Positions 8,991 to 57,542 of a stretch of 64,000 bases of DNA are shown here, in pieces; the first letter of the stretch is position 1; every line of letters begins with the position of its first letter. Where the stretch lies: positions 1 through 64,000 of the forward strand of contig JANVFP010000045.1 in NCBI GenBank assembly GCA_027919835.1. The letters are read 5' to 3'. The notes under the pieces are model-generated. The model had not been told where the DNA came from and made no database searches. It worked only from the letters and a program-made list of their open reading frames with translations. A program made the position numbers and the translations under genes. This DNA is from Lentinula raphanica. Its lineage: Eukaryota > Basidiomycota > Agaricomycetes > Agaricales > Omphalotaceae.

Positions 8991-9004
8991 CACTCTATCA
9001 CTTC

Positions 9005-9020
9005 CCTTGCTGGTCAAAGG
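9005..9020 (+). promoter_or_regulatory. SSP leader element, copy 1
   Basis: CCTTGCTGGTCAAAGG, an interrupted inverted repeat, lies about 350 bp upstream of the ATG at 9373 and three bases before a likely 5'-untranslated intron donor (AAG then GCAAGT at 9024, a GC-type donor). The whole leader matches those of the next two SSP genes. Confidence 0.7.
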
Positions 9021-9372
9021 AAGGCAAGTACGAATTCTCGTTCACAACAAGGAATCCTGAGTCCCTAAACAAACTTTTCTCATCCTAGTTTACGCTGGTC
9101 GACTCGCTATATTCACTCGCATACTCGAGCTCTACAACTCACTTTGCTTCTGGTACGTTGTGTCTCGTAGTGATAACATGGTTAACTCAAGCTTTCGATG
9201 CCGATTCACTCGTTTAGCCCTATTGAACGTTCATATTCGATTCAAAACTTGCCACTTTCATACCTCAAGATCTCTTCGTACACCGAATTTGAGTGGGTCT
9301 ACTTTCATCTACCGCTGTGCAGTCTTTGTCGGGCTAACATCACTCTCATAGACAAATTCAAACTTGCCCCTC

Positions 9373-9887
9373 ATGCGTTTCCATCATCTGGTTTTCTTCG
9401 GCGTTTTTCTCGCGGTTCTCGCGTTTGCAGCACCGGTCCCTCTTCAGGTCAGTCACCCACTGCAAGTCCCTAGTGGACATCATAAACCAGGATCGTCGAC
9501 TGATCGTTATCCGTTCTATAGGCCAGGACGTCTCCTAGCCTGGCAGCTCGAAGTTCTAAAAAAGAGGTCCTAAAATGCCAAATCGAGTACTTGAAAGACG
9601 CTCTGCCGTTTGAATACAAAATCGATATCGACAATGCCAAGAGCGTGATGGAGGATACTGTCAGGAGGGAGTTAAAGTCGAATTTTCGGTTCGCCAAGAA
9701 AACGAAAAACGATCCAGTTTTTTATTTCGTGGAGGATCCTGGCGTGCTTATGTCGGAATCACAAGCACAAGCTTCAATTCGAGTATGGGTGAAGAAGGAC
9801 GGAAAAATGGAGGAGTATAAGAAGAAAGGCAAGATGTGGATTGAAACTGACATCATGTCCGTTACAGAGGAACCCAAAGAGAAGTAG
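9373..9887 (+). CDS. Small secreted protein SSP1, 146 aa
   Basis: Two exons, 9373-9447 and 9522-9887, split in phase 0. Exon 1 encodes a signal peptide (MRFHHLVFFGVFLAVLAFA, probable cleavage before APVP). Exon 2 encodes a mature part of about 120 residues, rich in Lys, Glu and Asp, with no Cys pattern suggesting disulfide knots. It begins with an LAARSSKK segment that matches LAPRSSKK in SSP3, so the three genes are homologous, but the rest has diverged strongly: alternating strand-like stretches and one amphipathic helix. The 5' leader and the ~165-bp 3' flank are much closer to the neighbours than the coding part. Function unknown; secretion is inferred from the signal peptide. Confidence 0.75.
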
Positions 9888-10478
9888 TTTGCTCACGTTG
9901 ATTGCATAGTAGCTCTATGATGTGCAAAGTACATGTCGTGTGTATAGTCATTAGTAGATAGAAGGAGATCATTACATAATCGTTCCGCTCAAACTTCCAA
10001 GGATGAGATTTCCGACTTCTATCAGCCTCGTAACTCGAAACACGGAAACACTGAGAGTCAGACGCATCGTTGTATAAGGTTGTGCATATATTACTCGGTC
10101 CAAGACAGTCCAAGACCCGTAGGCCAAGCCGTTGGAATTCTGCTCGTGGCACTGGCAGCCCGTCGCTGCTGGTCCCTCCCGCCAGCTCCCGCCTTACTAT
10201 GAAGCCATTTTTCGTGTAGACTTCATGAACCGATGGCGTACACAAGCCTACACAGGCCTATACACAGTCCCATACTTCCGGGTATACTCTGGTAAGATGT
10301 ACATATTTTACCGATTTTCCTGGTGCTAGCCTCAGGCCTGGTCAGTGCCAAGCTGTGCCAAGTGGTCTCAGGTGGTCACCGAGGCTAGTCAGTACAGATC
10401 ATTATCGTACTACACAGATTCTTAAACCCCAGTATCATTTGTCGCACTCCCCCCATCTTTTCTTCGCTCTATCACTTC

Positions 10479-10494
10479 CCTTGCTGGTCAAAGG
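10479..10494 (+). promoter_or_regulatory. SSP leader element, copy 2
   Basis: CCTTGCTGGTCAAAGG, identical to copy 1, followed after three bases by the canonical donor GTGAGT of a 5'-untranslated intron. The next leader exon starts near 10571 with TTCTCGCTGGTCGACC. A second leader intron ends with GATAG just before the ATG exon near 10865. Confidence 0.7.
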
Positions 10495-10894
10495 AAGGTG
10501 AGTACTCAGTATACGAATCGCCGCAGTATGCGTGAAACGCCGCCTAATCAGACCTATCTGTTATATCCTAGTTCTCGCTGGTCGACCTGCTGTACGCACT
10601 GATACATACTCGACTTGACTTTGCTCTATCATTCTTCTGCACCGTACGTTGTGAATCATACACTATACATGATCGAAACGTCGACACCTACGCTCTTCCT
10701 CTAGCTGTCTCGAATATCGAGCATTCAACGTCAACGCTCGTATCAAACTCTGCTCGATTGCTCACTTCCTTCCTCAAAACTCTTTCATCATCGTTCTTGG
10801 AGTAAGTCCAACTGCGTCTGATTCTTCTACTGCCTTCGGCATTACTCACATCGCATTCGGATAGATCAACTTTACCTTACATTTACCTTTCAAC

Positions 10895-11441
10895 ATGCGT
10901 TTCCAAAGTCTCGCGCTCATCTGCATATACCTCGTGGTTCTCGTGGCATATGCAGCACCTATTCCTCGTCAGGCAAGTTTTCCACAAGTCATTCAAAACA
11001 CCTCCCTCCCCCAGTCGATATTTCAAACGAGAATCATCTTATTAATCGTTCTTCCACTCACAGGATGGGTTTCCTCCCACCCTCGCACCTCGAAGCTCGG
11101 CAAAACTGAAAATCACAAAGATCACTTTGCATTACTCGGATGCCGATTTTCAGCGTGCGTGGATGTCCACGGTAGTTGGGAGCTCTGCAAACGAAGACAG
11201 GGATATGAAGGAGCTCATGCGGCAGGCTATTAACCGGTATTTGGAGGATAAAGATACGAAGTATGAGAAGAAGAGTGTTGATGATGGGCGTTTCGCGTAT
11301 AAGGGGAAGGAACAAGGTTCTCAAGCAGGAATGGCCGAGTTTGATATAGAGACGAAAGACGAGAAAGGGAAGGTGAAGGAACATAAAGGGGGTGAGATGT
11401 ATGTCAACACGATGAGTATGAATGTTATGAAACTTCCTTAG
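10895..11441 (+). CDS. Small secreted protein SSP2, 151 aa
   Basis: Exons 10895-10972 and 11064-11441, split in phase 0. The donor reads CAG then GCAAGT, so this is a GC-AG intron; the paralogous SSP3 has GTAAGT at the same site. Exon 1 is a signal peptide (MRFQSLALICIYLVVLVAYA, cleavage before AP). The mature part opens with LAPRSSAK, continues with strand ITKITLHYS, a helix around MKELMRQAINRYL, then charged strand-and-loop segments ending GGEMYVNTMSM. It is close to SSP3 and distant from SSP1. No cysteine framework and no known enzyme motif; function unknown. Confidence 0.8.
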
Positions 11442-12016
11442 TTGAGTAGTTGAGGTTTTGAGTGCACCTCGGCCCTCTATAGTGTGCGATGTATTGTGTG
11501 TACGGTTATTAGATAGTTGGATAGAAGAGACTGAACCTTTCTTGATGCCCGTGCGATGCTCGAACCCAGAAACGATCGTAATAAGTATATTGGTGTACGA
11601 AGACGCCTTGTCAATGATAGATTCGATCACTATCGGAAACGAGGCTCGATGACGTCGGAGGATGCTATGCCCAAGCAGTCCAGAAAGACGCATATGGGTA
11701 CATTCACGTAGCTCTATGATGTGCAAAGTACATGTCGTGTGTATAGTCATTAGATTTTGGAAGGAGATCATTAATCGTTCCGCTCAAACTTCCAAGGATG
11801 AGATTTCCGACTCCTATCAGCCTCGTAACTCGAAATTCGGAAACACTGAGAGTCAGACGCATCGTTATTAGAGGTGGCTTGTGATGCCGTTGGAATGATG
11901 CTCATGGCAGCCCGTCGCTGCTGGATGCCAATTGGTTGTTAGTATGTAGACTCCATGAACCGATGGCCTCTGGCAGAGTCAGCCAGAGTCCCATCGGTTC
12001 TTCCTGGTATAGCCTG

Positions 12017-12039
12017 GTATATACGAGTCTCGTATATAC
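12017..12039. other. Perfect 11-bp inverted repeat upstream of SSP3
   Basis: GTATATACGAG, one base, then CTCGTATATAC. It lies about 190 bp upstream of the SSP3 leader element, so it is a candidate promoter operator or cruciform. The equivalent spot upstream of SSP2 is only partly similar. Confidence 0.7.
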
Positions 12040-12229
12040 TTATCAGAATCTATTTTACCGATTTCCCTGGTGCTAGCCTGTGCAGGCCAAGGCCTGCCAA
12101 GGCTAGTCAATGATACCGAGAAAGGGATGGATCATTATCGATTATCGTGCTACACATCAGATTCTTCAAAGTTCAGCCCCAGCATCATTTGTCGCGATCC
12201 CTCCCATCTTGTCTTCGCACTATCACTTC

Positions 12230-12245
12230 CCTTGCTGGTCAAAGG
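12230..12245 (+). promoter_or_regulatory. SSP leader element, copy 3
   Basis: CCTTGCTGGTCAAAGG, again three bases before a GTGAGT donor. The following leader exon begins near 12330 with TTCTCGCTGGTCGACC as in SSP2. Confidence 0.7.
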
Positions 12246-12639
12246 AAGGTGAGTATACGATTTCGAATCGCAGTATGCGTAAAACGCCGCCTACTAATCA
12301 GACCTACTACATATCTGTTATTTACTAGTTCTCGCTGGTCGACCTGCTGTTCACGCACCGATACTCTACTGAACTTTGCTCTCTCAAATTTTCTGCAACG
12401 TACGTTGTGAATCATACTCTATATAGTATAACATGATCCAGACTTCGACACCTACGATCTTCCTCTAGCTCTCTCGAATATCAAGCATCAACGATCAACG
12501 TCCTTCTCAAACTCGATTGCTCAAACCTCTTTCTTCATCGTTCTTCGAGTAAGTCCAACGGTGTCTGATTATTCGACTGCGTTCGTCATTAATACTCACA
12601 TCGTATTCGGGTAGATCAACCTTACGTTCACTTCTCAAC

Positions 12640-13171
12640 ATGCGTTTCCAAAGTCTTGCGCTCATCTGCATATACCTCATCGTTCTCGTGGCATATGCAG
12701 CACCTGTTCCTCGTCAGGTAAGTCTCCCACAATTCGATAACACCTTCCCCGGTCGATCTTTTAAACGAGAATTGATCTCATTGATCGTTCTACGGATAGG
12801 ATGGGATTCCTATCACCCTCGCACCTCGAAGCTCGAAAAAACTAGAAATCACAAAGATCACTTTGCATTACTCGGAAGACGATATTCGGGGTGTGGGGAA
12901 TCCACCGCCTGGAAAAACCCAAGACGAGTACATGAGGGAGATCATGCGGGACGCTATCAACGGGTATTTGGAAGCGGGTATAGATACGAAGTATGAGAAG
13001 AAGAGGGTTGATGAGGGGCGTTTCGCGTATGAGGGGAAGGAAAAAGGGAGTCCCCAAGGAATGGCAAAGTTTGATATAGAGACGAAAGACGAGGAAGGGA
13101 CGAAGAAGGATCATAAAGGGGGCGAAATGTATGTCAACACGCTGAGGATGGGTGTTGAAAAATTCCCTTAA
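12640..13171 (+). CDS. Small secreted protein SSP3, 149 aa
   Basis: Exons 12640-12717 and 12800-13171, phase 0, with a normal GTAAGT donor. The signal peptide MRFQSLALICIYLIVLVAYA differs from SSP2 by one residue. The mature part shares LAPRSSKK, ITKITLHYS, a helix around YMREIMRDAINGYL, and the closing GGEMYVNTLRM with SSP2. Substitutions and small indels concentrate around the helix start and the loop after it. It is the downstream copy of the 1.8-kb tandem duplication. Function unknown; probably secreted. Confidence 0.8.
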
Positions 13172-13656
13172 GAGTAGTTGAGGTTTTGACTGCACGCTGG
13201 CTCTAGAGCGTGCGATGTATGGTGTGTACGGTAATCAGATAGTTGGATAGAAGAGGCTGAACCTCGCTTGATGCTCGAACCCAGAAAAAATCGCAAGTAT
13301 GTATATCGAACATGAAGAGAGGCCTTGTCAATGATCACTATGGGAGACTCGGACAAGAAGAGGCTCGATGAGGTCCGATTAAGTTGGTTCAAACTAGATT
13401 CCTCGAAAGAATTTCTGCCTCTTATTCCTCTCATTATTTCGAGCTGAGTCCTGAGTCCACAAGGGACGAGAAAACGTTCTGGCGGAATAGGGAACGTTCG
13501 TCCAACGTTTGTCGTTGTCGAGGGAAACTTGAAGGGTAAGAAAGAAATTCCCACGGGTCAAGTAACCTAAATCGGCAAAATTTTGCTCTCTTACACTTAC
13601 ACTTTCACCTTCACCTTCACCTCTCTCCCTCAAAATGCCTGTACTTGGGTTATAAC

Positions 13657-13693
13657 AGGGTGGAATTCAACTTACGAAGAAGAATTCCACCCT
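13657..13693. other. Perfect 12-bp inverted repeat with 13-bp spacer
   Basis: AGGGTGGAATTC at 13657-13668 and GAATTCCACCCT at 13682-13693. It lies about 110 bp upstream of the proposed methyltransferase ATG. It could be a hairpin in the mRNA leader, a dimeric protein site or the termini of a tiny mobile remnant. Confidence 0.75.
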
Positions 13694-13799
13694 ATAGAGC
13701 TGACCTTTTAGAGCTACTGATAGACCATAGACGAACTCAACATAGAACCCTAGAGGATACCCTTAGAGAAAAATCTTCTGCGCTAGAAAAAATTTCATC

Positions 13800-15314
13800 A
13801 TGTATCGCACCTCAAACCAATCCTTCGCGACAAGTATACCATTATGCGCACCGACTGCGTGTCTTCCTTCTCTTTCCAAACTCTCTCTCAGTCTTTTCTC
13901 ATCTACCCACCTCCAAGAGTCCCTAGAAAAGCTGCTGGAGCTATACGCTCCCCAGCCTCAGCCTCCTCGATCTGCATTACCTCCCAAACTCATCTTACCC
14001 ACTCGGAAACATCGGCAGGTCATTCACGACGAGTCGGTTCCGGATTCTGGGTACGCTTCTGCTGAAGAAGAAGAAGAGGATGATTGCACTTTTGAAGAGG
14101 AGGAGGAGGAGGAGGAGCTGCTCGTTCCGAATCCCAATGATGATGACCAAATGGATATCCTCCGAGCTGACCCTCTCGAACGTGCGTTTGCCCTTAAATG
14201 GCTCACCAACTTCATCGCTCGGTCCGATGAATGGGTTTCTTCTGCCTGCGATAGCGAAGAAGAGGAAGCAGAGGTGGAAAGGCGGGCAGAAGCAGTAGAA
14301 TCGGCAACGAACCTCCTTTCGATATTACTCGGAGATGACCAAGAAGACCCCACCGACGTGTCCCTCACACGTTCCTTTCGGTTTTCCCTTTCCACACCCG
14401 ATGGACATGGACATGGACGGGGACCCCGGATCATCGAAGTAGAGCTGAACGACGCGCCGTTGTCGGATGCAGACCATACCTGTGTCGGACTGCAGAGCTG
14501 GGCGAGCTCGGTTGTGTTGTCCGAGCGAATGTGCAAGGATCCTGTGCGGTTTTTGGCGTCTCCCGGTGTGAACGGTGTGAACGGTGCGCAGACTCAGAGC
14601 AACGAGGGCGTCGGTTCGACGGGTTTGCGTGTGTTGGAGTTGGGAGCAGGAACGGGGCTGTTGAGTATTGTCGTTGCGAAGATACTTTCGAGCTCAGGCT
14701 CCTCTCCTTCTTCGTCTTCGTCCGCGTCACCGCTTGGTGCGGCGGCGTCGATATTCGCTACGGACTATCATCCCGAGGTGTTGTGTAACCTCCGTGATAA
14801 TATATCTACCAACTTTCCTTCTTCGCCTCCTTCATCTCTCAACCGTTGCCCACCTGAGCCACCTTATCCAATCTCCATCTACCAACTCGACTGGGAACAC
14901 CCCGACTACTCCGCGCCTCTCGACGAACCGTTCGATCTCATCCTCGGGGCTGATGTGATCTACCATCCTGAGCACGCGAGGTGGATCAAGTCGTGTGTGG
15001 AGCGGTTGCTTGCGAGGGGAGGAATATTCTGGCTGATGATGGCCCTCCGCATCGGTGGTCGACACGAAGGGATGTTTCATACGGTCGAGGATATTTTTCC
15101 AGATCCAGATGCAGATGCACAGTCGTCGTCGTCGTCTTCGTCTGCGGTATCGATGTGCGCAAGAGACGATCAGGACCAGGACAAGGGCGATAGTCAGAAA
15201 ACCGATTGGCAGTTGTCTATTCTGGAAAAATGCAAGCTTGGGAAGATGAAAGGCATCGGACGCGCAGATGAGAGTGGGTATTTGTTGTTCAAGATTGGAT
15301 GGGTGCGATGCTAG
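13800..15314 (+). CDS. Family-16 S-adenosylmethionine-dependent protein methyltransferase
   Basis: A single uninterrupted frame of 504 codons. The N-terminal 200 residues are partly acidic (runs of Glu around residues 90-110 and 150-165). The C-terminal half holds a class I methyltransferase fold of the Methyltransf_16 type (lysine methyltransferases such as FAM86 and METTL21 relatives): motif I VLELGAGTGLLSIVVAK (about residue 280), acidic post-I motif ATDYHPEVLCNL, and DLILGADVIYHPEHA. Family members methylate lysines on proteins such as elongation factors; the substrate here cannot be told. It is longer than usual because of the acidic N-terminal part and Ser-rich inserts. The start is uncertain: an upstream exon is possible and the first residues (MYRTSNQS) are not family-diagnostic. 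Confidence 0.75.
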   Translation: MYRTSNQSFATSIPLCAPTACLPSLSKLSLSLFSSTHLQESLEKLLELYAPQPQPPRSALPPKLILPTRKHRQVIHDESVPDSGYASAEEEEEDDCTFEEEEEEEELLVPNPNDDDQMDILRADPLERAFALKWLTNFIARSDEWVSSACDSEEEEAEVERRAEAVESATNLLSILLGDDQEDPTDVSLTRSFRFSLSTPDGHGHGRGPRIIEVELNDAPLSDADHTCVGLQSWASSVVLSERMCKDPVRFLASPGVNGVNGAQTQSNEGVGSTGLRVLELGAGTGLLSIVVAKILSSSGSSPSSSSSASPLGAAASIFATDYHPEVLCNLRDNISTNFPSSPPSSLNRCPPEPPYPISIYQLDWEHPDYSAPLDEPFDLILGADVIYHPEHARWIKSCVERLLARGGIFWLMMALRIGGRHEGMFHTVEDIFPDPDADAQSSSSSSSAVSMCARDDQDQDKGDSQKTDWQLSILEKCKLGKMKGIGRADESGYLLFKIGWVRC

Positions 15315-15604
15315 CTTTGAATGAAGTTGTTGCTTTCGTTCGTTCGATAGATAATACTAGATATATGTATGAATTTGGGTGGGTTTATGTAGAGGTATTG
15401 TGTAAAGTATAATCGTAATTCTACCAGTATTGGTCCTTGGAATTAGTACATCTTGGTATATCGAACGAATATGTAACAAAGAGATCTCGAGGCGTCCTAA
15501 TCATAACGCTTGTTCAAAGGAGCGAAAGGTACGAAGAAAATCCAGATATATAAGCTTCGCGAACATCTGTATAACGATCCTTGTACGCGCTCACAAACCA
15601 AGCA
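15315..15604. other. Intergenic between convergent genes
   Basis: Holds the 3' ends of the methyltransferase (plus) and the unknown gene at 15605 (minus). Nothing else recognised. Confidence 0.5.
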
Positions 15605-29757: not shown

Positions 29758-30090
29758 GAGGGGCAGTAGACTTAGCCGTGTACAAGGACGTCAGAAAACT
29801 ACTCGAAGGAAGATTAACAGGATAGCAAGTACATGTGGATTTTGAGGTGAGGCTGACAAAGTTGAAGACAGAATGTGAGCGCGCGTGATTCAGGTCTAGA
29901 AGAGGAGAGAGAGGGGAAACAAAGGCCGAGTGAGCACGTTCCTATATTGCAGAGTCGCATAAGCTCAACTTACCGCAGTGGGAGACGGAAAACAGGACGA
30001 TAGTGGCGAACGAGATGAGCTTGGTGCAACCTAAGTATTCGTCGAGAGCGATGATGATGAATAGGAGACTCACCAAAGATTTCTAGTACT

Positions 30091-30109
30091 TTCTTTGACC
30101 AGCAAAGAA
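30091..30109 (-). promoter_or_regulatory. SSP leader element, copy 4
   Basis: On the minus strand TTCTTTGCTGGTCAAAGAA, a perfect 7-bp inverted repeat around CTGGT, extendable to 9-bp arms (30089-30111). A GTGAGT donor follows about 15 bases downstream on the same strand. A TATA-like GATATATC lies about 65 bp further upstream, near 30173-30180. Confidence 0.75.
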
Positions 30110-30111
30110 AG

Positions 30112-36059: not shown

Positions 36060-36877
36060 CTTCTTGTTGAGCACAGATGTTGGATGTCTTCGTTGCAATG
36101 GACAGTGTCCTGAAACAAGTGTGCTTACTTTTGCTTATCCTAGGTACAGACCATGATTGCGGAACCAAATAGCATATATCAAGGTAATAGTGAGGCATAG
36201 TAGCATGTACAAAGGAATGAGAGCTCAAAAAGCCTCAATATATCTAATTTGTGCCGCGCGAGTCAAGAGAGAGAGAAAAGAAATCATTGCGTTGAATGGG
36301 TACATCTGCCGAGTTGAAGCAGTCAAACAGCCGAAGATGTAATCTAATCAGCACTCGGACAGATAGTATAACCGGACCCGGTGGCTGTACATGACCTGAG
36401 TCCAAATCGGGACTCAGGTATCCACAGACGTACGAAACAAGCCGATATATCAGCCCCAGGGGAGTCTCTTCTTGGCTCCCGTCCTCATCCGTCGGCTGTC
36501 AGATGGAGAGAAGAGACGGACAAAGACGAACCCGAAGGCTCCCGAAGGGGAGGAAGGCAAAACGGCCAGCTTAGGCCAGCTTAGGCTAGGTTTAGAAGGT
36601 TTCAGAAAGGGCGCATCACGTATTGAAACTTCATGTAACTCCGTTCAGAACTTCAGCCTGGCTTCATCCGAAGGACGAATATCAGCGAATATCATCCGGT
36701 CGCAAGACTTCGCAGGGATAGTTGCCGATGACCGTCGGTTTCCCATCCGCAATCAGAGACTAGCATACAATCATAAAAAGAGACTCACTGACCACGACTC
36801 AAATCTTCATTCCTTGGAGTCACCTCTTGTCTTGCCAGATTCTTTGCTGGTCAACTTACATCCTGCTTACATCCTCC
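36060..36877. other. Transposase 5' flank and SSP5 promoter
   Basis: Near 36394-36419 is a perfect 10-bp inverted repeat. From about 36725 the sequence resembles the region near 40138-40250 upstream of the SSP7 gene (both contain CCGTCGGTTT followed by CATCCG and ATCAGAGA), so the right host/transposon junction is probably before 36725. A TATA-like CATAAAAAG sits near 36773. Confidence 0.5.
36394..36419. other. Perfect 10-bp inverted repeat
   Basis: ACCTGAGTCC at 36394-36403 and GGACTCAGGT at 36410-36419, separated by six bases. It lies just outside the transposase gene and may belong to the element terminus or be a protein-binding site. Confidence 0.75.
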
Positions 36878-36900
36878 CTTTCTTTGCTGGTCGAAGAAAG
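36878..36900 (+). promoter_or_regulatory. SSP leader element, copy 5 (with a partial copy at 36839)
   Basis: The core is TTTGCTGGTCGAAG with 7-bp outer arms CTTTCTT and AAGAAAG. A second, partial copy (TTCTTTGCTGGTCAAC) lies 39 bp upstream, so the element is locally duplicated here. Confidence 0.7.
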
Positions 36901-39393: not shown

Positions 39394-40328
39394 GAGGGGC
39401 AGTGGGCTTGACTGTGTATCACGATGTTAGGAAACTCGGGAAGAAAGATGAAAAGGATGGCAAGTACACGTGAGAACCTGAGGCAAAGCTGAAGACAGAT
39501 ACAACGTGAACGTGGGGATCTAGAGCAGAAGGAATCGGAAGGAGAGCAAACACAGAATAAGCACATTTCGATTCGGAAAAGGGGGGTATGTGAATCAGTA
39601 CCACTGAAAAACCGGAAAGCAGAACTGTAGTACGAGAGCGTCGAATGAGTTGAACTGGGTACGATGTTAGCTTTGATCTAAAACAAGAGAACACTGGGAG
39701 ACTCACCAGATGTACAAAGATTCTTGGACGCCTTCTTTGACCAGCAAAGAAAGGAAAATTCAAAAGAGCGCGGTAGGAAGCCGAACCAGCAGATGGGGGA
39801 AAGGGGGGGACGATGACGATCAAGTAGATATACACCCATCAAGTTTCTTCAGGTATCTTCCCGTCGGATAGTATGTATTGGGAGATCATGCCAAGCCTTG
39901 CCAAGATCAAGAAAAAGCGACAAATTCTCAGTGGCTGAATTCCCTTCGAGTTTACGTTTCGCGTTGGGCCCATTGGCAGCTGCTGGCAGCTGTTGGCCAT
40001 TGCCTCTTCAGTGTTCACGACACTCCCCACGGGTAGCGCTACGAAATTCTCCTTTCTCTTAGACTCTCTAGGCTGCAGGAGGCTGCGGGAGGCTCCCGCC
40101 TGCTGCTCCTTGTATGCGATAATATTTGAGCAGCGATGGCCGTCGGTTTCCCATCTGTATCAGTCTGTATCACTGTCAAATTTCGTATGTTGAGCAGCCG
40201 CAGGATGGCCGTCGGTTTATCATCCGTATCAGAGATCTCGTATGCATATCATGAGCAGATCATGAGGACGGATTTGGATCCCCATTCTCTTGAGTCGCCT
40301 CGTTCAAGTTGCTTCTCACATTTTTTAC
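39394..40328. other. Divergent SSP6/SSP7 regulatory region
   Basis: Contains the leader exons and introns of SSP6 (39394-39760) and the shared upstream region. A TATA-like TATATCTAC reads on the minus strand near 39825-39833. Direct repeats of GCAGCTG and of GGCTGCRGGAG occur near 39975-40095. It corresponds to the interval that, in the other pair, is split by the transposon. Confidence 0.5.
39733..39751 (-). promoter_or_regulatory. SSP leader element, copy 6
   Basis: Minus strand TTCTTTGCTGGTCAAAGAA, identical to copy 4, followed by a GTGAGT donor about 25 bases downstream. Upstream on the same strand both SSP4 and SSP6 also carry CCCCATCTGCTGGT. Confidence 0.75.
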
Positions 40329-40347
40329 TTCTTTGCTGGTCAAAGAA
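40329..40347 (+). promoter_or_regulatory. SSP leader element, copy 7
   Basis: Plus strand TTCTTTGCTGGTCAAAGAA, identical to copies 4 and 6, about 316 bp upstream of the ATG at 40663. Leader splicing in between is likely but not resolved. Confidence 0.75.
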
Positions 40348-40662
40348 AGCGTTTCTCTACGGTCAACTTTATCCACCCTCTGCATCCAGTGAATCATGTC
40401 TAACACCCCCCAGGCAGGTCCGAATTGTCATTGGCAATTGCAATATTCGTCCGAATTCATCTCGTCTTGTGTATGTGCCAACCCATGGTGCTGTGACTTG
40501 ATTTCACTCATGTAGAACGGTATACAGTTCATCCACGCCGTACTCAACGATTCCCTGCTCTTCTCTGTTCTTTACGTTCTACACTGCCGTCGTTCGTGAG
40601 TTCAATATTGCTGTCATTCTATTGGCCTCTGACGGAAACGTTTGAACCTTCAGTTGTCCGTC

Positions 40663-41912: not shown

Positions 41913-44222
41913 TCAAGGGAGCTGGGATGATGACTGGCCATCGTATATAGGACACAACTCTTTCCAGTCGGCTACAAAGCAACACGTCACATTCATAGCT
42001 GTGGAACATTAGAGGATTCAATACGGCTTACCAGGAATCGTATCATCCTTGCGAGTATCCCGTGTATCTTCTGCTAGAACGACAGCGAGTCCTAAGTTTA
42101 AATGGAGGTCGATGTGACTTCGAGCGATTTGGTTGAAGATGGACTAGTAATGAGTACGAGTCGATCCCAGTCGCACGAAGAACGAACAGGCTTACCAATG
42201 TAAGAACCAGGGTCCAGCATTGTCCGTCACAAACCTGATTGTGGTTTGGTTATTCATTGCTACTAACGTAGTATCTCGACGGACCTAGGGAGTTCATGAA
42301 CATCTGTGGATTACTTGGAATATAATGAAAGGAGTATTGGACTCACTGGGTTTTTAAAATTGTATTCTAGGCTATCAGATGTTTTGACAACGTTGAATGC
42401 ATGCTAAACCATGGGTCAACGAGCTCATCTCAATTTCAGGTTCGGTTGCAAAGTAGAATGATGTAAAATTTATGAAAACAAAGAATTCGACGTACACCAT
42501 GGAGGTGGAAGGGGTGCGGACCACCACTAGCGTCCGCCCCCCAGAAGCTTATCTCGATAACCTTGTGCGCTGGAAGCGTATACACCCCTCCTATCGGCAA
42601 CAAGTCTTGCGCATGTTGTACCCCACTCAGGATCTGCAACAACACAGGCACCGTTGGCGACTGAAACACCACTCCGTTCATCTTGAACAGTATTTGATCG
42701 GGGTCAAACCCCAGAGTGAAGTTCAGAACCACATCAGCACCACCGGGGTATGGTTGTCCTGGTGCGCCAGGGTTTTCGAGCGGATGAAGATCGCCTTCTC
42801 GGAAGGTTATCATTTCAGAGGAGGGCAGCTGGGATGTTGTAGGTTCTTCCTCTGGAGCTCCGACGTATCGAAGGATAGCAGAGTTCACCCCATTGGTGAA
42901 ATTGTGAGTCCCGACGCCGGTGTTGGATAATGCTCGGATACGATAATTAGATATCACTTGATCTGCGTGGAGGACAACGGAGTATCGTTGGGCGGGATAA
43001 AGCTCGATAGAGTTCACAGTGTGAGGCTGGGTGTTGATTCCGTCGACTTCGATGATGGTCAGGTTATGGGAGTCTATGGAAAAGGCGTGGAAGGCGTCAA
43101 AAGACATATCGATCAAGCGGAATCGGTAACGTTTTCCGTGCTCTACTTGGATCACGGCTAGAGGAGTATCAGGCTGGATGAACCGTGTTGCCGTTAACAT
43201 AGAACTCAGCTGGTCAAAATCAGAGCACTCACTCCTCCAACGTAACGGCCTTTTCCGTTAATCAGTGTTGCATCAGCAGATGGAACGGCGCGGGCAGCGA
43301 GCAGCTGTAAGCTGGTAAGATGAAACCTTTTTTACATCAACAATCAACAAAGACGATGCTCATCGGTAATAGGAACAATCATACCAATCCGCAATTGTGA
43401 TTATCGTCGACTCTACAAGAAATCCGAGCTCAGTTCAATGATGAATGAATTTTCTGACAGAAGGCCTCACCATCATCAACATCGTACATATCCCGGTGAG
43501 GGTCCTCTGGGTCATAGATGACAAGAGGTCCTCTCAATCCATCACCATACTATGAAGAATACAAGTCATCAATGATTTCATACCCAGGTTAACTTTCTGA
43601 ACGAAGACGTACCTGCACAGAGAGATGACTATGATACCAAAACGTCCCCGCTTGGTCCGGAACCCCAAAATCATACATGAATGAATGATTCGGTGAGATA
43701 GGACATTGAGAGACAAAGGCTACCCCATCTGCGTAGTTCGTCGTTTTCTGAAAGAGGCCATGCCAATGCTACGGCGGGAGCAGTCGTTAGACGGGGTATC
43801 CAGTGAAATTGAATGTGGTCTGAGACATACGATGGTTGTACTTCTATCCAGCGAGGGGTCGGTGAGTGAATCCGTAACGTTGATGTAAAATCGGTCGCCC
43901 TATCGGACGATGCGTGAGGATGCATCGACAATACTCGGATACAATACGTACCTTTTGTGCAGTCAGTAAAGGCCCAGGGAACGATGCTTCGTGAGGCGTC
44001 TTCCCTGCCAACACAGTCCTATCAAAAACATCAGGTAAGAGGAGGTAAAAGGACAAGATACGATGCTACTCGCGAACGATGAAATCCATCCGGAGCGATG
44101 ACTTTGTTCACGATGTGAAGCTGATTATGTTCATCTCGAGGACGCGTTCTGTTTACATCAGCACCATAGGCAATTTGGACAGCGAGGAGGTAAACCTCCA
44201 ATATAGTGAGGAGTAGATTCAT
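41913..44222 (-). CDS. Secreted multicopper oxidase, laccase type
   Basis: A many-exon minus-strand gene starting at the ATG at 44222 with signal peptide [20 protein letters not shown]. All four copper-binding signatures can be read: HWHGLFQ (near 43775-43760), WYHSHLSVQ (near 43635-43610), HPFHLHGH (near 42450 across an intron) and [12 protein letters not shown] (near 42125, assembled across an intron whose acceptor reads GAAG at about 42130). The last signature usually reads HCHIDWHL; here Leu replaces Trp. The residue at the axial position is Leu, associated with higher-potential laccases. The C-terminus [11 protein letters not shown] is typical. Laccases oxidise phenols with reduction of O2 to water and in mushrooms serve lignin modification, pigment or development. 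Neighbouring SSP genes suggest a secretome-rich region only. Confidence 0.85.
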
Positions 44223-49500: not shown

Positions 49501-51037
49501 ACCCCACTACCAAGGCGAGAACTCTTGTGTCCAACACATCACACGCGCCTTCGTCAAATGTCAGTAGCTCAGTTGCTAGTAGCAGTGCAAGTTCAAGCGC
49601 TAGTTCGAGCAATAGTGGCCAAAGTACCCACAAAAACGCAAGCAGCGGTAACGACTCTAGATCTCCCCGCAACCAAACCCGAGGGCAGGAGATTACTCGA
49701 TATCGACCAGCAGCATCGAAACCTCCTCCGCGATCTATGAGCGCGAATCAGATATCTACTCCTGCTCCTTCCATGTCTCGTTTCCCACCTCCGTCTAAGC
49801 CGTTTGCTTCGCAGAGTCCTGCAAGCTCTACAGGTGGCTCAAGCAGTGGTAGAGGAGCACCGATCACGCCAAGAGATGGTAGTGATATTGGAGATGGGAT
49901 TCATCACTCGCCTTCAAAGGAAGAACAGTGGGGAAGTGGTGTTAGTGGATTAGGGTTTGGTACGAGACACGGGAAGAAGAGAAGTATCGCGTTCGATGAT
50001 GAAGGTGGAGTTGAGGGGCAAGGGAAGAATAAGAGTAAAGAAACACCAGAGGATGAGGAGGCAAGGCGTAAAGAGAGGCGGAGGAGTGAGGCTCGTGCTG
50101 CGATCGAGGTAGGCTCGTGAACTTCTTGTGATTTTCCTTTCCTCACTTATTCGTTCTTGTTGTTCAGCTCGGGAATACGATCAATGGCCCAGGTCCCATT
50201 CTCGACGACGATGACGAAGATCTACCTATCAGTCAAACCACTGGAGCTATGATGAACGGAATGAGTCCGATGATGATGAATGGACCTATGCCTGGCATGC
50301 CGGGTATGCTCGCACCCCAGATGACCGGAAACCCGATGTGGGGATGGCCATCCATGCCGTCCATGCCTCAAATGGCTCCAGGTCAAATGTTGTCGCCTGC
50401 TCAGTTCATGGTTCCGCCTCCTACCGACCCAGCTTTCTTCGCTGCCCATCAACAAGCAATGATGTATGCTAAGCAGGCATATCAAATGGCTGTCGCTCAA
50501 CAGGCCATGGCAGCGGCAGGGGAAGAATGGGAGCGTGGTTCAGCTGTGGGTGGGTTCAGCAGCAGTCAGAGCATGTATGGTATGCCGCCCTCCACCCCAT
50601 CGATGATGGGCTCGCCATATGGCATGGGAGGTATGAATGGGTGGTCAACTGGGTCTACGCTCTTCCCCCCCTCTGCTTCGCGAACGAGCATGTTTGGGAG
50701 TGGCGCTATGAGTGAATACGGAGGGAGTGGAAGGAACGGAGGTTGGGCTTCCTCCAGAAGTGTTTATGGAGAGTCATTTGGTCCTTCAGCGCCTTCCCCT
50801 CGAAGTCCAGGTGGGGCTAACAGAGGGCGACTGTCGTCTTATAATCGTGAATCTGGTCACTATCCTCCAATGCCGCCTATGCCTCCTCCATCGAATAACA
50901 AAAATGCAGCTTCTCGACAATCTGCGAATCCAAGAGCCCGTACGGTCAGTCAGCCTGCCAATCCTGTCCGGAATCGTGATGCAGGTACTCCCGCTCGCAA
51001 GGCTCCTCCTTCGAGCTGGAAGACAAATGCTGCATGA
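46536..51037 (+). CDS. Large Ser/Pro-rich disordered protein, 1,462 aa
   Basis: Three exons (46536-47949, 48004-50108, 50168-51037) join in phase. Almost the whole protein is low complexity: Ser, Pro, Thr and basic patches with many SP/TP sites, suited to proline-directed phosphorylation. A stretch of Thr sits near the middle of exon 2, a short charged helix (DEEARRKERRRSEARAAIEVG) spans its end, and an acidic DDDDEDLP precedes a Met/Gly/Pro/Gln-rich C-terminal third (PGMPGMLAPQM, MMYAKQAYQMAVAQQAMAAAG). No enzyme domain or membrane span. Such composition fits a scaffold, an RNA-granule or a cell-polarity protein, but I do not recognise it. Confidence 0.75.
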
Positions 51038-51737
51038 GCGCTATATATACATCATATTACAAGATTGAATTCCTTCTTTATACGCCTCGTTTCTTTTTCC
51101 TCTCGTTCTGCTGTTTTTTTCTTGCAACATCGCATCTGTATACCAGCCAATCATTGAACTTTCCTCGTATATTTTCTTGATCAGAGGACAGGATAATGTC
51201 TTGGAGTACATCATGATATACCACCCATGATCAACTGTATCCTTCCTTCTCCGTTCCTTTTTCTTTAATTCCGACAACCAAAAGCTCTCCAACTTCTCTT
51301 CAATAGCATAGCGATCGTTTCCGAACTATTAATCTTGTAGTCTGTAGTAGTAAACCGTATTTCCTCAAACCTCCGTACGCATTCCTTCAATGCACTGAAC
51401 TAGTCGTCAATCTTCTCATAGATATTTAACAACCTATCTGTACCACATCGCACTACTTTCGAGTCTCGAAGCAGCGTGGAAGAAAGGACCAAGTAATGTT
51501 GTCGAGGGACCATTCCGTATCGACATAAGTATCATAGAACATGCGATTAAGCTGACTCTTCAAGTTAATAGGGACTGTAGAAGAACATGATGAATATATA
51601 ACGAAGGTGGGACTACAGTACAACACAGTAAGTGTACCTCGAAGAACAAGATCAATATACATACTGTTAGTAGATCAGTTATATGTAGCCCGAATAGATA
51701 GAGTAAGATAGAGAATGTACATGAAGTTGGTAGTGAC
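51038..51737. other. 3' flank of SSP8, duplicated at 53850
   Basis: From about 51160 this sequence is nearly identical to 53850-54475. On the minus strand it holds GTAAGT and GTACAC sites that could be 3'-untranslated intron donors. No coding potential recognised. Confidence 0.55.
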
Positions 51738-53018
51738 TTACCGACACCAAACAAAAGTAAGAAAGAAAGGTAGGTAGAAATAAGTGCGAAACATAAAAGA
51801 AAGATCCCGACACAGCAGCGTCGGGATTCGGCGCCTAAACCTCATCCATATCTTCCGCATCTTCCGCAGTAGGTTCGTTCGACTGAGAGGAAGCACCCTC
51901 GCTCGGATCTTCCGATTCGAGCAAATCCACAATGCGAACGATCTCGGGACTACGTGCTTTTCAAATTCTGTCTCTAATAGATGTGGTAAGAGGTTTTTGC
52001 AATTAGATTTTACTGCGACATGGATGTAGGATTTCGGATTCAGAGCGTCTTTGGGTGTATTCGTTTTGGTCAAGAGGGTTTCAACGTTCATCATGGTTTG
52101 AAGGGCTGCATGTTGGACGTATTTTCTCCGGAACATGGTGGAGAGTACGATTGGCAATTCTTTGTAAAATCCCGCGGCAGGCCGTTTGCCCTCCCCCGCT
52201 TTGTACATGTCAACGTTGTGGACATGGCCATCCTTGCCGTAATAGAGGCAAAAGAAACCACCGAAGCAGATCGCCGGGTCTGCCTCCTTCCTCTCTTCCA
52301 GTGGTGCTCCCAGCCACACTGGCTCTTTGCCTACAAACAATCCGGCCCAAAGTCTGACTCGATCGGTGACGACTCCAGTGCTGCTCGTCGTTATAAACTC
52401 GGAGCTCGTGGAGTCGGCGTTCGGGCCCAAAGTAACTGCATCCATATCGTCCGACGGGAGGGAAGCTATCGCGGTTGCAACATCGGGCGCTTTGAGCGCG
52501 TACACGAAGCCGATGATTTTGGGAAGATTCGCACGGTCTTCAACTGTTATGTCCTGCCTGATAGAAGTTAATATTCGAGGGATAAAGGTATTCGGAGTCA
52601 ATCCAGCTTCGTTAAGTTGAGAATGCGGCATAGTTTCGCGGTAGCCTTTCCATTTTCTTCGGAACGCGCCTTTGGTAGTCACTGGCAATTCCACATAATA
52701 CTCCTCGAAAGGCTTATTATTGCCATGTTTGCGTATGTCAACGGTGTAGACTCCGCCGTGCTTGTCGCGACCGATGCAAAAGTAGCCAGCCAAGCAGACC
52801 AAGGGGTTTGCCTGCTTTCTGTCTTCCCAGGGTGCTGTTGGCAACAACCATTCATCGTCTTTGCCAAATCCAGTTCGAAGTCCAGCCCGGATTTTGCCTT
52901 TTTGACTGTCTATATTCTCTTTCTTGGTCCTTGAACCAGACCGCACGGGTCTCGGAGTCACAGAGACTACACAGAAAAGGACAGCGGCAGAAAGGGAGCA
53001 TAAGACACGAAAGCGCAT
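51738..53018 (-). CDS. Secreted protein SSP8 with two tandem domains; C-terminus frameshifted
   Basis: A single minus-strand frame of 426 codons. The signal peptide MRFRVLCSLSAAVLFCVVSV is followed by two copies of a ~85-residue domain (about residues 45-130 and 218-300) with pattern WEDRKQANPLVCLAGYFC / LEERKEADPAICFGGFFC, a glycine-rich turn, VDxxK, a YxELP motif and FRRK. Each domain has two Cys. After the VVP near residue 350 the frame runs into a basic tail, while the next frame reads EIVRIVDLLESEDP and ends DMDEV with a stop at 51835, matching the paralogue SSP9. A 1-bp loss relative to SSP9 therefore replaced the acidic tail. No intron follows the signal exon, unlike the other SSP genes. 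Confidence 0.65.
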   Translation of the reverse strand: MRFRVLCSLSAAVLFCVVSVTPRPVRSGSRTKKENIDSQKGKIRAGLRTGFGKDDEWLLPTAPWEDRKQANPLVCLAGYFCIGRDKHGGVYTVDIRKHGNNKPFEEYYVELPVTTKGAFRRKWKGYRETMPHSQLNEAGLTPNTFIPRILTSIRQDITVEDRANLPKIIGFVYALKAPDVATAIASLPSDDMDAVTLGPNADSTSSEFITTSSTGVVTDRVRLWAGLFVGKEPVWLGAPLEERKEADPAICFGGFFCLYYGKDGHVHNVDMYKAGEGKRPAAGFYKELPIVLSTMFRRKYVQHAALQTMMNVETLLTKTNTPKDALNPKSYIHVAVKSNCKNLLPHLLETEFEKHVVPRSFALWICSNRKIRARVLPLSRTNLLRKMRKIWMRFRRRIPTLLCRDLSFMFRTYFYLPFFLTFVWCR

Positions 53019-53268
53019 TTCTGAATGACGAGGAGCGAAGGGATGAGAGGATGAGTGTGAGAGCCTTGCGAGGGGTTTTCGAGAGAAATAGAGGGAGAGC
53101 GGTATGGATGTACGTCCGGTGGAATGATAAGGGACGATTAGAGTCGATGGGAGGGACAGGAGGGATATGGAGTTAGCAACCTACATAATGTATTCAAATT
53201 GTGAAGTCGAGATCAGCTCAAGAATCATCTATAAGAGGCACACTCACCAGTCGAGGTGAAAACAGCAG

Positions 53269-53282
53269 TTTTGACCAGCAAG
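53269..53282 (-). promoter_or_regulatory. SSP leader element, copy 8 (diverged)
   Basis: Minus strand CTTGCTGGTCAAAA, followed downstream by a GTGAGT donor (plus-strand ACTCAC at 53243-53248). The core is kept but the outer arms are partly lost. Confidence 0.65.
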
Positions 53283-53849
53283 AGAGATATACGGAACTTC
53301 GATGATCCGACTATTGTCAACTATGAAAGGAGAGATATTGAACACGGTGAATTTAGATTCGACAAGGATCGCCTACATACCGAACCAGCGTTGAGCAATC
53401 TTTTTGAGGGGCCGGGTTCTGGGGAGAGGAGACTTTGACGATTGCTGTTTGGCGGCGTGTAAGATCGTGGATGAGGGAAGAAAACAGATTGGGTACCGAC
53501 GTTTTTATATATATTCTCTCGGATAAACGCATGAATTTGCCCTTTGAAACCTAATCAAAATGAGCGAAGGCGGTGAGTGTCCACCTGTGTCCTATAAGTA
53601 CTGTCCAGATGGAAGTTACAGTTGAGCGCTCCATCGGTGTTCTTCACATGAACCACTATGTATCAGCCAAATTCTCTCGCAGCTACATACCCTTCCACGT
53701 TCACAATTTCCGTCTCCGAGTCCTTGGCCAGATTTACCTGCATAACGCCTGGCCAGTACAACTTGAGGACCGAATTTCGAGCAGAGAGTTAGTCTCCCGA
53801 GGAGTCAGACTCGTAAATTGATGATCCTCAGAGGACCACGCAAGACAGT

Positions 53850-54475
53850 CGATGCTATATATTTTCTTGATTAGAGGACAGGACTCCTAATGTCTTGGAG
53901 TACATCATGATATACCACCCATGATTAACTGTATCCTTCCTTCTCCGTTCTTTTTTCTCTAATTCCGATAACCAAAAGCTTACCAACTTCTCTCCAATAG
54001 CATAGCGCTCGTTTCCGAACTATTAATCATGTAGTCTGTAGTAGTAAACCGTATTTCCTCAAACCTCCGCACGCATTTCTTCAATGCACTGAACTAGTCG
54101 TCAATCTTCTCATAGATATTTAACAACCCATCTGTACCACATCGCACTACTTTCGAGTCTCGAAGCAGCGTGGAAGAAAGGACCGAGTAATGTTGTCGGG
54201 GGACCATTCCGTATCGACATATCATAGAACATGCGATTAAGCTTACTCTTCAAGTTAATTGGGACTGTAGAAGAACAGGATCAATATATAACGAAGGTGG
54301 GACTACAGTACAACACAGTAAGTGTACCTCGAAGAACAAGATCAATATACATACTGTTAGTAGATCAGTTATATGTAGCCCGAATAGATAGAGTAAGATA
54401 GAGAATGTACATGAAGTTGGTAGTGACTTACCGACACCAAACAAAAGTAAGTAAGAAAGGTAGGTAGAAATAAGT
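53850..54475. other. 3' flank of SSP9, copy of 51160-51780
   Basis: Nearly identical to the SSP8 3' flank apart from scattered substitutions and a few short indels. It is the best-conserved part of the duplication although non-coding. Confidence 0.7.
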
Positions 54476-54603
54476 ACATACGAAACAAAATCTATAAGTG
54501 AGAGAACGGGGGTGAGGGTGAAACGAGTGTCAGTAAGTACCTCCCTTCCTTCCTTCCCGACACGGCAGCGTCGGGATTCGTGACAGCTCCTACGTGACGG
54601 TGC

Positions 54604-55328
54604 CTAAACCTCATCCATATTCTCAGCAGCAGCAGCAGCTTCGGCCAATTGCCAGGCGGAAATGCTCTGGATCGGATTTTCTGATTCGAGCAAATCCAAA
54701 ACGTGAGCGATCTTGGGCGATACGACGTTTTCAAAGTCTGCCTCTGACTCTAGACGCGGTAAGAGGAACCCGCGAACAGATTTTACTGTGGTAGGGATGT
54801 AGGATTTCTGATTCAGAGCCTCTTTGGGTGTATTCGTTTCCTTCAAGAGGCTATCAACGTTCATCATGGTTGCGACTCTGCGAGGGCCGTCTGTTGTTCG
54901 TATTTTCTCCGGAACACGGGGGAAAGTAGGGCAGGTAATTCGACGTAATACCCATCGGCGGCCCGACTTTTGCCCTCTGTTTTCATGTCAACTCTGTGAA
55001 CTGCCATGCGGCCCATGCCGTCCTTGCCTAAAAAGAGGCAAAAGTAACTAGCATAGCAGCACGCGGGGTTTGCCTTTTTTCTCTCTTCCAGTGGTGCTCT
55101 TAGCGACAATGGCTTATGGCCTTGATCAAAATACCCGGCCCAGAGCTTCACTCTATGGTCGCGAGTCTTTTCTGCATTCTCCGCAAGCATGGCCCGCGCA
55201 CCTGGCTGGTCCGAGGGAGCTCTCGGGACCAAAGTTGGACTTAGGGCAGGCGGCAAGGGGCTCGTAGTCACAGAGACTACACAAAAAAGGACAGTGGCAG
55301 AAAGGGTGTATACGACACGAAAGCGCAT
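54604..55328 (-). CDS. Secreted protein SSP9, single domain, broken by a frameshift
   Basis: The minus-strand frame from 55328 encodes signal peptide MRFRVVYTLSATVLFCVVSV, a spacer, and one copy of the Cys-containing domain (LEERKKANPACCYASYFC to FRRKYEQQ), then stops after 154 residues. A second frame from 54867 to 54604 continues the homology to SSP8 (MMNVDSLLKETNTPKEALNQKSYI) and ends in an acidic tail, ENMDEV. Between the two, SSP9 has eight extra bases compared with SSP8 near 54870-54890, too few for an intron, so the frame is broken. The upstream domain found in SSP8 is missing. It could be a pseudogene, or a functional truncated form. Confidence 0.6.
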
Positions 55329-57542
55329 TTCTGAATGACGCGGAGCGAAGGGATGAGAGGATGAGTGAGGGAGCCTTGCGAGGGGTTTTCAGGAGAAAAA
55401 AGGGAGCGTGGTATGGGGTACGTCCGGTGGAATGATAATGAATGATTAGAGTCGATGGGAGGGACAGGAGGGATATCGAGTTGGCAACCTACATTCAAAT
55501 TGTGAATTCGAGATCAGCTTAAGAATTATCTAAAAGAGGCACACTCACCAGTCGAGGTGAAAGCAGCAGTTTTGACCAGCAAGAGAGGAATACGAAAGAT
55601 AATCCGACTATTGTCAACTGAGAGAAATTGTCTACGCGGTGAATCAAGGTTTAAAACGAAGATTAGGATCGCCTACATACCGAACCAGCGTTGAGCAATA
55701 TTTTTCGACGGGGGAAGAGACTTTGAACTTCTACGATAGTTGTTTGGCAGGGTGAAAGATGGTGGTTGAGGGAAGAGTTTGGGTACCGACGTTCTCTTAC
55801 ATATCTTCTCTTGGGTAAACGCATAATAAATTTGCCCTTTGAAACTGAACTCAAAGTAACCGAAGGCGGTGCGGATTTCTTCACATGAACAGCCAAATTC
55901 TCGCAACAGCTCGCAACTTTGCACTATACTACCCTTCCACGTTCACAATTTCCGTCTCATTGGCCAGATTTACCTACATAACGCCTGACCAGTACAAGAG
56001 GACCGAATTTCAGGCAGAGAGCATAGAAGTAATCGGGTGACGGGGCCACTGCTGGGGCGGCGGGCCCAATCTCGCGACTCGTCTCCTCTCGTCTCAATCC
56101 TGTCTCGATCCGACGCATCGCCAAATGCTATGTACGTAGCAACATTCTGTTCCTGCCATATTAGCGCACTGTATCACCGCAGCTGACAACACGTACTAGG
56201 CAGTGGGCACTGGGGATCCTCCTTTGAAAACCACTGAACGCAACAACGTCAGATTCGTCACTAAGTGCAAGTTATCCGTATCCCGGCTAAACCAAGGCCT
56301 ACCAAGGTCCAAGGTCCGCCCTGTCAGACCCTGCCGTTCGCAGCCTTTTGGTAAGAAGAGACCTCAGAGCTTTCTGAGGCTTTCTGCCCTCGCTCTTGAC
56401 TGATGTCGATAATCATTGAGACTGATCGACGATCACTATCCATACGCTACAACCGGACGAAACTTTCGTGCACTCGTAGCTACTCGTAGGCGGGCACATC
56501 GATAAAGCACGATACCGGTGGAGATTCGTTTTGCAGTTGAGCTACCCATACTTGCCCGTCTACGAATTCGCCCCGTTCTGCTGCGTCTCTCTAGTTTGAG
56601 GGCAACGATTGTCTCGCGTTCTCAAGCTACGAGTCTGACTAGGGAGGCTACTGCGTCTCCGCCGATTTTCATTGATTCAGCCTGAGGGGTACAGTCGTCT
56701 CCGATCTAGCAGCTCTCAGGCAGTACCTGTACAGGTTCTCTCGTCCTCCTCTGGACACTCTTAGCTCAGATCTGATAAATGGAGCTGAGGCTGTCTTTTA
56801 GGAATCAGGTTTGTACGTCTTATCTGTGAATCAGCGTCTTGCCACTGAAGGACGCAAATTATGATACAGCTCTTAATCGATATATCATCGACGGCTTCGA
56901 GGAATTACGGAGTCTACATTCCGGAAGCACGTTGTGTCCTTCAAGAAAGGTGGGGATGCATTGAGAACCTCGATCTACAATTGTTGCGCAAAGTTGGCAG
57001 TGGGTCAAGTCCAGACACGTACATCGCTCAATACTTACGATTCCATCTTGGAAACGACCCTTTCGAGCGTGAATTATACAGATCTCAACTTGGCATATCA
57101 GGCCTCAGGCTGCGGGGGACATTCTGTGTCTCTTATGGCATCCACTGTTCCAATGAAGTTGTAGGGATGGCACGGTGCGCATATACTACTAGTAGACACG
57201 TTGAATAAGCACACCTACTCCAAGCCATCGACATCGTAGGATGGTTGAGTACAAGTCGTCCGAGAATGAGGACAATGTCATCCTATGCATCCGAGCTTTG
57301 AGTTCGAACGACCATCCTGAGCCATCCTGGCACTTCATTTGTGATAGTATTCCGGCGTCTGGAGATCAACATTATTCCTTCAGCTATACGAAAGAGAAAT
57401 TGAACGAGTGTCCACTGTCCTCGACGGTTCCGAACTCAAAAGACAAGTCATCTAGATCTGATGATCATCCCGGGATGATGTTTGCAAGATGTTTGCCCCT
57501 GTGGACCAAAACTTCTTCTATTCCTTCCACAATAACCTCAAC
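55329..57542. other. SSP9 leader region and gene-poor segment
   Basis: To about 55820 it is the leader and promoter of SSP9, duplicated from SSP8. From 56000 to 57542 only short unconvincing frames occur (for example 56861-57208). Confidence 0.45.
55570..55583 (-). promoter_or_regulatory. SSP leader element, copy 9 (diverged)
   Basis: Minus strand CTTGCTGGTCAAAA, as in copy 8, again followed by a GTGAGT donor (plus-strand ACTCAC near 55544). Confidence 0.65.

Follow-up and report, generated by a model that had tools for sequence, protein, structure and literature searches.

A putative Smaug-type hairpin in the presumed 5' leaders of secreted-protein genes of the mushroom Lentinula raphanica

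Fungi secrete many fast-changing small proteins, and the joint control of unrelated secreted-protein genes is an open question, usually pursued in promoters. This question is raised by a stretch of 64,000 nucleotides, hereafter the window, from Lentinula raphanica, a shiitake relative (Agaricales, Omphalotaceae), in which nine genes for signal-peptide proteins are preceded by one short inverted repeat, hereafter the element. The window is C45:1-64000 (contig JANVFP010000045.1, 336,253 bases) of a genome of 49.06 Mb in 75 contigs. What is the element, and does it act in DNA or in RNA? We consider it fairly likely, from sequence analysis, that it is a 5'-leader and probably cap-near Smaug recognition element (SRE; Smaug/Vts1/SAMD4), which would group secreted-protein mRNAs into a regulon.

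A sequence-only reading of the window had reported nine copies, and the exact 12-mer TTGCTGGTCRAA was indeed found at all nine sites, each 1-6 bases off the figure given earlier: at 9007, 10481, 12232, 36884 and 40333 on the forward strand, and at 30094-30105, 39736-39747, 53270-53281 and 55571-55582 on the reverse strand. With up to two mismatches, 26 matches were counted in the window, where 100 shuffled versions averaged 10.8 (maximum 18). The predicted hairpins around the 12-mer differ in their stems. Copy 1 (9001..9023, +; secreted gene ATG 9373) reads CTTCC-c-TTG CTGGT CAA-a-GGAAG, with one mismatch, and copies 2 (10475..10497, +; ATG 10895) and 3 (12226..12248, +; ATG 12640) belong to the same family. 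Copy 4 (30089..30111, -; ATG 29757) is CTTTCTTTG CTGGT CAAAGAAAG, with 9 bp, while copies 5 (36878..36900, +; ATG 37211) and 6 (39731..39753, -; ATG 39393) are CTTTCTTTG CTGGT CGAAGAAAG and CTTTCTTTG CTGGT CAAAGAAGG, each with one U-G pair. Copy 7 (40329..40347, +; ATG 40663) is TTCTTTG CTGGT CAAAGAA. Finally, copies 8 (53270..53281, -), whose secreted open reading frame (ORF) at 51738-53018 starts 263 nt on, and 9 (55571..55582, -), ahead of the secreted ORF 54864-55328, both read TTGCTGGTCAAA and have a 3-bp stem only, TTG/CAA. The copies at 30105(-), 39747(-) and 40333(+) are identical (TTCTTTGCTGGTCAAAGAA), as had been claimed, although they are not perfect palindromes, being inverted repeats with a five-base middle. 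A signal-peptide gene follows every copy on the sense strand (9/9), with an ATG and hydrophobic signal 254-414 nt on. The nine are not independent of one another: once the element is masked, the flanks fall into five homology groups, some of them tandem, and that of 9007 also aligns with that of 10481, hence four to five families. The window alone therefore cannot decide; the genome can.

In the whole genome, exact TTGCTGGTCAAAG occurs 107 times (59 forward, 48 reverse) and its reversed-pattern control not once; TTTGCNGGNCAAA occurs 247 times against 12 for its control. From these sites we read in context a subset of 87 distinct copies of TTGCTGGTC[AG]AA, in fetched loci and in the window. An earlier clustering by shared 8-mers had given 62 families; comparison of the flanks (250 bases before and 450 after the masked element, BLAST E 1e-4) left 36 groups without flank homology. 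Related families are common, with groups of 12, 11, 6, 6 and 6 copies, so that copy counts overstate the number of independent cases. The copies could have no shared function at all, and have been inherited from one duplicated leader or repeat in expanding secreted-gene families. Tandem families do exist, as in the five groups of the window and in the element clusters on C4, C24 and C42. The sequence-only reading had counted its own claim of a shared signal as refuted if all copies came from a single recently duplicated locus, flanks included; as far as this comparison was run, flanks are unshared across the copies read, which spread over 36 groups. The compensatory stem changes and the restriction of loop changes to the form CNGGN, both described below, moreover point to selection on the hairpin. 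We regard inheritance from a single leader as very improbable; on these sequence comparisons it appears already largely refuted.

Several leaders show multiplication on a local scale. One locus (L057, C42:64500-66700) holds four elements in a single leader, at 551, 678, 808 and 932, spaced by 124-130 bp, and three of the four are followed by GGCATGTC; here the leader unit has been multiplied in tandem. Pairs of elements about 270-290 bp apart are seen in the C4 family (L008, L010, L012 and L016).

Does the position ahead of secreted-protein genes hold outside the window? Among the 72 copies with 762 bases available on each side, 57 are followed in the same orientation, within 750 bases, by a signal-peptide-like ORF, and 8 have an outward one on the other strand. 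At random places in the same fetched DNA, at least 1.5 kb from any copy, the frequency was 110/590; the enrichment proposed in the sequence-only reading is thus borne out in the part of the genome where it was run. Two signal-peptide predictors were used, the first of them loose; the second, on which the count of 57/72 rests, misses clear signal peptides such as those of L012, L014 and L007, so that part of the 15 negatives is due to the predictor. Two loci (L005, L036) have no leader-like gene by eye and look like true exceptions, and two others (L027, L074) are ambiguous. The distance from the element to the predicted ATG ranges from 25 to 694 nt, with 25-60 nt in 7 cases, and is at most 120 nt in 20 of the 57 signal-peptide copies. 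Orientation is also biased: between -400 and +500 around the 87 copies, GCTGGT is found 86 times on the sense strand and 13 times on the antisense strand, tandem copies included. A common control signal had been proposed, and this proposal is supported: in most of the copies read the element lies on the sense strand before secreted genes, and its copies are spread over the genome and not explained by one duplicated locus.

On the evidence of its two arms, the element appears to be an RNA hairpin whose five-base loop, CUGGU, is closed by a G-C pair. The cleanest test of the stem is given by genome-wide pattern tallies, which are independent of the fetched loci. A pattern that fixes TTTG/CAAA and excludes G from both outer letters gave 94 sites (control 1), comprising 65 A-T, 18 T-A and 11 unpaired at pair 5; 83 of the 94 are thus paired, where independent columns predict about 56 (tallied by eye, the C...G class being counted apart). 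In the DNA read, 81 of 88 TTTG/CAAA copies are paired at this position (62 C-G, 12 T-G, 4 A-T and 3 T-A). When pair 2 was forced away from T-A, using a pattern that admits nine letter pairs, four of them complementary, 58 of 70 sites were paired (49 C-G, 4 A-T, 5 G-C) and 12 unpaired, again by eye. Two of the 70 sites (C2:1646675 and C8:1459042) have a same-strand TTTG/CAAA copy at most 150 bases away. Overall, T-A is the commonest stem pair and TTTG/CAAA the commonest inner stem, and compensatory pairs were seen at stem positions 2 and 5-8.

Folding energies agree in direction. Briefly, arms were folded with bulges allowed and compared with arms dealt among groups or copies. For the 36 flank-independent groups the mean was -5.34 kcal/mol, against -4.22 for dealt arms (standard deviation 0.29, 0/500 as low), and for 70 looser clusters it was -5.51 against -4.32 (standard deviation 0.19, 0/300 as low). 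Over 75 distinct copies, the share of paired cells is 81.3%, against 76.1% after shuffling, and 41 cells are doubly changed against 22.1 (0/500 as high in both cases), a control which is inflated by related rows.

These results bear on the main rival, in which the element would be a DNA site, i.e. a downstream core-promoter or transcription-factor site with inverted half-sites CTTTG/CAAAG around CTGGT, activating secreted genes. Such a site would account for the existence of a single commonest form, TTTGCTGGTCAAA. Independent half-sites, however, would not yield 83/94 complementary letters at pair 5 and 58/70 at pair 2, and the middle of the element lacks symmetry and lies mostly on the sense strand. 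We hold the DNA site to be unlikely, though it is the alternative to be taken most seriously.

A number of observations on the stem nevertheless weigh against an RNA hairpin. In seven of the 36 groups, among them the 53281/55582 pair, the uninterrupted stem falls short of five pairs (it has 3 in six groups and 4 in one), and yet the 12-mer is kept; such weak-stem copies are better explained by a DNA site. Uninterrupted stems of at least 7 bp are no commoner than among dealt arms (12/36 against a mean of 10.8; 675/2000 deals reach 12). Doubly changed pairs numbered 4, which was equalled or beaten in 416/500 shuffles, and pair types numbered 17, equalled or beaten in 34/500. When the partner is slid by -1, the covariation score is 0.196, against 0.195 in the true register, and when it is slid by +1, 52 cells are doubly changed against 41. 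This equality of slid and true registers on some measures also suits a DNA site, although the slid registers pair fewer cells (64% and 60% against 81%). In addition, the reversed control for pair 2 is high (26), so that perhaps a third of those sites are due to chance, and both tallies count related copies apart, 17 of the 65 A-T sites falling in one C24 stretch. Gene context was read for only four A-T-stem sites, and for none of the pair-2 tally sites by design.

The loop provides a separate line of evidence. The Smaug/Vts1 idea was set down ahead of the loop-substitution searches, in which the stem was kept fixed and reversed patterns served as control. Across the genome, sites with a changed base numbered 7 (control 4) at loop position 1, 17 (control 3) at position 2, 14 (control 7) at position 3, 4 (control 3) at position 4 and 40 (control 1) at position 5. 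Bases 2 and 5 are thus far more tolerant of change than bases 1, 3 and 4, C1, G3 and G4 being nearly fixed, and this tolerance matches CNGGN, another point against a DNA site. T is found at base 2 in 107 or more sites, against 17 with another letter. The 5' G and the loop length were fixed in all patterns, so their presence does not make selection on them demonstrable.

Variants were then considered in their gene context. Nineteen base-2 or base-5 variants were read, 15 hand-picked from listings and four fetched earlier, and by eye 14 of them lead a signal-peptide ORF (L014, L046, L050, L063-L065, L068-L073, L075 and L077); the others have no clear secreted gene (L042, L066, L067, L074 and L076). 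The four A-T-stem copies read (L069, L072, L075, L077) all stand ahead of signal-peptide ORFs. Among the base-1, -3 and -4 variants, one of five does so (L058), and its leader also holds a normal copy; the hand-picked L078-L081 show no convincing signal peptide. Some of the variants are clustered in the genome. Copies with a CAGGT loop lie together at C1:1196837-1208547 and C3:312391-318350, and related secreted genes (MRLQRI.., MRLHLV..) follow the three that were read (L063-L065); 17 A-T-stem copies form a large cluster over about 270 kb at C24:450247-719862.

How does this element compare with known ones? In the available part of one report (PMC4053848), SREs are hairpins whose loop reads CNGGN0-3, and binding is best predicted by CUGG together with a G just ahead of it and a loop of five bases. 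The features of this description that we find in the element are a loop starting C-N-G-G, a base-paired stem and U at loop base 2; the loop of five, the G just 5' of it and the variable stem are further likenesses. The element is thus SRE-like in form, and its membership in the SRE class is likely, judging from these letters. There are also differences: the element occurs in one or a few copies per leader, its commonest inner stem is TTTG/CAAA, and its gene set is that of mushroom secreted proteins. Further, and this speaks against assignment to the SRE class, the described SREs lie mainly in 3' untranslated regions and coding sequence, as far as the excerpted reports go, whereas the element lies in a presumed 5' leader; in yeast, the accessible text of one study gives SREs as enriched within the coding regions of mRNAs targeted by Vts1 (65% against 36%, PMC2573929). 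The Smaug-type hairpin itself is known; its presumed placement in 5' leaders across mushroom secreted-protein genes appears to differ from described SREs.

The corresponding protein is predicted as well. Four profile matches to SAM_2 were obtained in the genome at E 0.01. In one of them, at C2:742957-743127 on the minus strand, the domain part (57 aa) was read: its best match is to yeast Vts1 structures (2fe9, E 2.7e-16), the next being Drosophila Smaug (2.7e-6), and RLHKY and LGARRK are identical with yeast Vts1 in the alignment. The RNA-contact residues of the yeast Vts1 SAM domain are listed as R464, K467, Y468, L496, G497, R500 and K501 in the portion of the source available (PMC9893680); all seven are present in the C2 domain, the yeast numbers being placed by spacing. 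By this alignment, the L. raphanica genome encodes a Vts1-like SAM domain.

The two lines of evidence together bear on a further possibility, that the hairpin is real and independent of Vts1, and acts through another RNA-binding protein or as a bare cap-near structure that slows scanning. Covariation demonstrates a hairpin only, and short stems near the presumed cap would suit this possibility. The stems are weak, however, with a mean of about -5 kcal/mol, which makes blocking by the bare hairpin unlikely, and the loop identity matches the Smaug/Vts1 pattern while a matching domain is encoded. We consider a Vts1-independent hairpin improbable, more so than the DNA site.

Two other systems show part of the pattern. 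Yeast Ssd1 sites resemble the element in their leader position and in their cell-wall mRNA targets, but they are a linear pyrimidine motif without a hairpin. The DOG box, a shared promoter motif of effector genes in plant-parasitic nematodes, is likewise a short motif across many unrelated secreted-protein genes, but it is a DNA motif and not a covarying transcript hairpin.

Where would the element lie in the transcript? Over the 62 family representatives, TATA-like words at -120..-40 on the sense strand give 14 family counts (5 + 9 in two 40-base bins), against 2 on the other strand, and none was found further down on the sense strand. The sense strand is pyrimidine-rich from about -60 onward. 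Together with predicted ATGs from 25 nt on, these words and the pyrimidine stretch suggest that transcription starts just upstream of the element, which would hence be near the cap. The position right after TATA-like words and a pyrimidine-rich stretch would also suit a DNA site. So would the unpaired CTGG[TC] found at -70 to -13 in 20/62 families on the sense strand and 7/62 on the antisense strand: the hairpin model leaves it unexplained, and extra unpaired CTGGTC copies by the presumed start are better accounted for by a promoter element. The upstream unpaired CTGGT/CTGGC copies may mark the transcription start or be decayed copies.

The sequence-only reading had further placed most copies shortly before a 5' splice site. 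Such sites are guesses from sequence: plausible donors of the GT or GC type come after the three copies at 9-12 kb and those at 30105(-), 39747(-), 53281(-) and 55582(-), while 36884 and 40333 show no obvious one. Across the 62 family representatives, the bin directly following the element holds 7 donor-like words on the sense strand and 5 on the antisense strand; GTGAGT alone, counted over 50 bases in all 87 copies, occurs 7 times in sense and once in antisense. A link to splicing is possible in some families, as far as such words can indicate it, and a general link is not established. GGCAAGT after the element, at 9016-9028 of the window and in the second copies of L008, L010 and L012, resembles a GC-type 5' splice site. 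As to DNA or RNA, between which the earlier reading had not chosen, stem covariation and the loop-substitution pattern favour an element acting in RNA.

If the element is a cap-near SRE, the following chain of events can be proposed. The hairpin would be transcribed in the 5' leader, probably within the first tens of nucleotides, and the CUGGU loop on secreted-protein mRNAs would be bound by the fungal Vts1. Yeast Vts1 works via Ccr4-Not, Eap1 and decapping, according to the part of the paper available (PMC3468468). By analogy, Vts1 would recruit Ccr4-Not and a 4E-binding protein, and the bound mRNAs would be deadenylated and decapped, or kept untranslated, until conditions release them. Relieving these mRNAs of Vts1 would in that case increase many secreted proteins at once. 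Least certain in this chain is the direction of the effect, taken here as repression rather than, for instance, localization.

Other features of the window concern the surroundings of the copies. A weak extra copy, TTGCTGGTCAAC, with a 3-bp stem lies 40 bp upstream of copy 5 (36844..36855, +). A possible second, shorter element, TCGCTGGTCGAC (TCG/CGA), is found 94 nt after copy 2 (10575..10586, +) and recurs at 12332-12343, with a weaker version near 9094; its TCG/CGA hairpin is absent from local folds. The secreted ORF at 51738..53018 (-) encodes 426 aa, and the six homologues found are itself and five L. raphanica proteins; the ORF at 54864..55328 (-), of 154 aa, is related to it. One L. raphanica relative retrieved by protein search is the hypothetical protein C8R42DRAFT_690582. 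No Pfam match was obtained for this family (51738-55328), which is probably lineage-specific, as judged from these searches. Scans of the window gave no Rfam match at gathering scores and no tRNA. A long tandem repeat of coding-like character (SSRVRVRQEFAFVK...) lies at 7505-8589 and is open in two frames that overlap. Exons of a multicopper oxidase (laccase-like) are present at 42436-43200 (-) and of a chitin synthase at 61950-63317 (+); no exact element copy lies near either, and a two-mismatch match at 43207 is on the strand opposite to the oxidase.

Our literature searches found nothing on Vts1 in Basidiomycota. Among the matches listed, none concerned such a fungal leader element by its title or the start of its abstract, and none containing the letters of the element concerned a fungal leader by its title. 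In rice blast, the section available of one report gives Vts1 as a Pmk1 kinase substrate that is essential for disease (PMC13224767), and to that extent the link could reach beyond mushrooms.

A short leader hairpin, which can be added to any gene, would let new secreted genes enter a regulon fast. With Vts1 named as candidate regulator, the idea is directly testable. In its broadest form it is put forward tentatively, as a proposal that could nearly as well be right as wrong: much of the lineage-specific secretome of the mushroom would form a single regulon, controlled after transcription. Perhaps 200 or more of its leaders would bear a Smaug hairpin near the cap, maintained through compensatory changes, and a single RNA-binding protein, plausibly controlled by a MAP kinase as reported for Vts1 of rice blast, would hold back or release the secreted proteins together.

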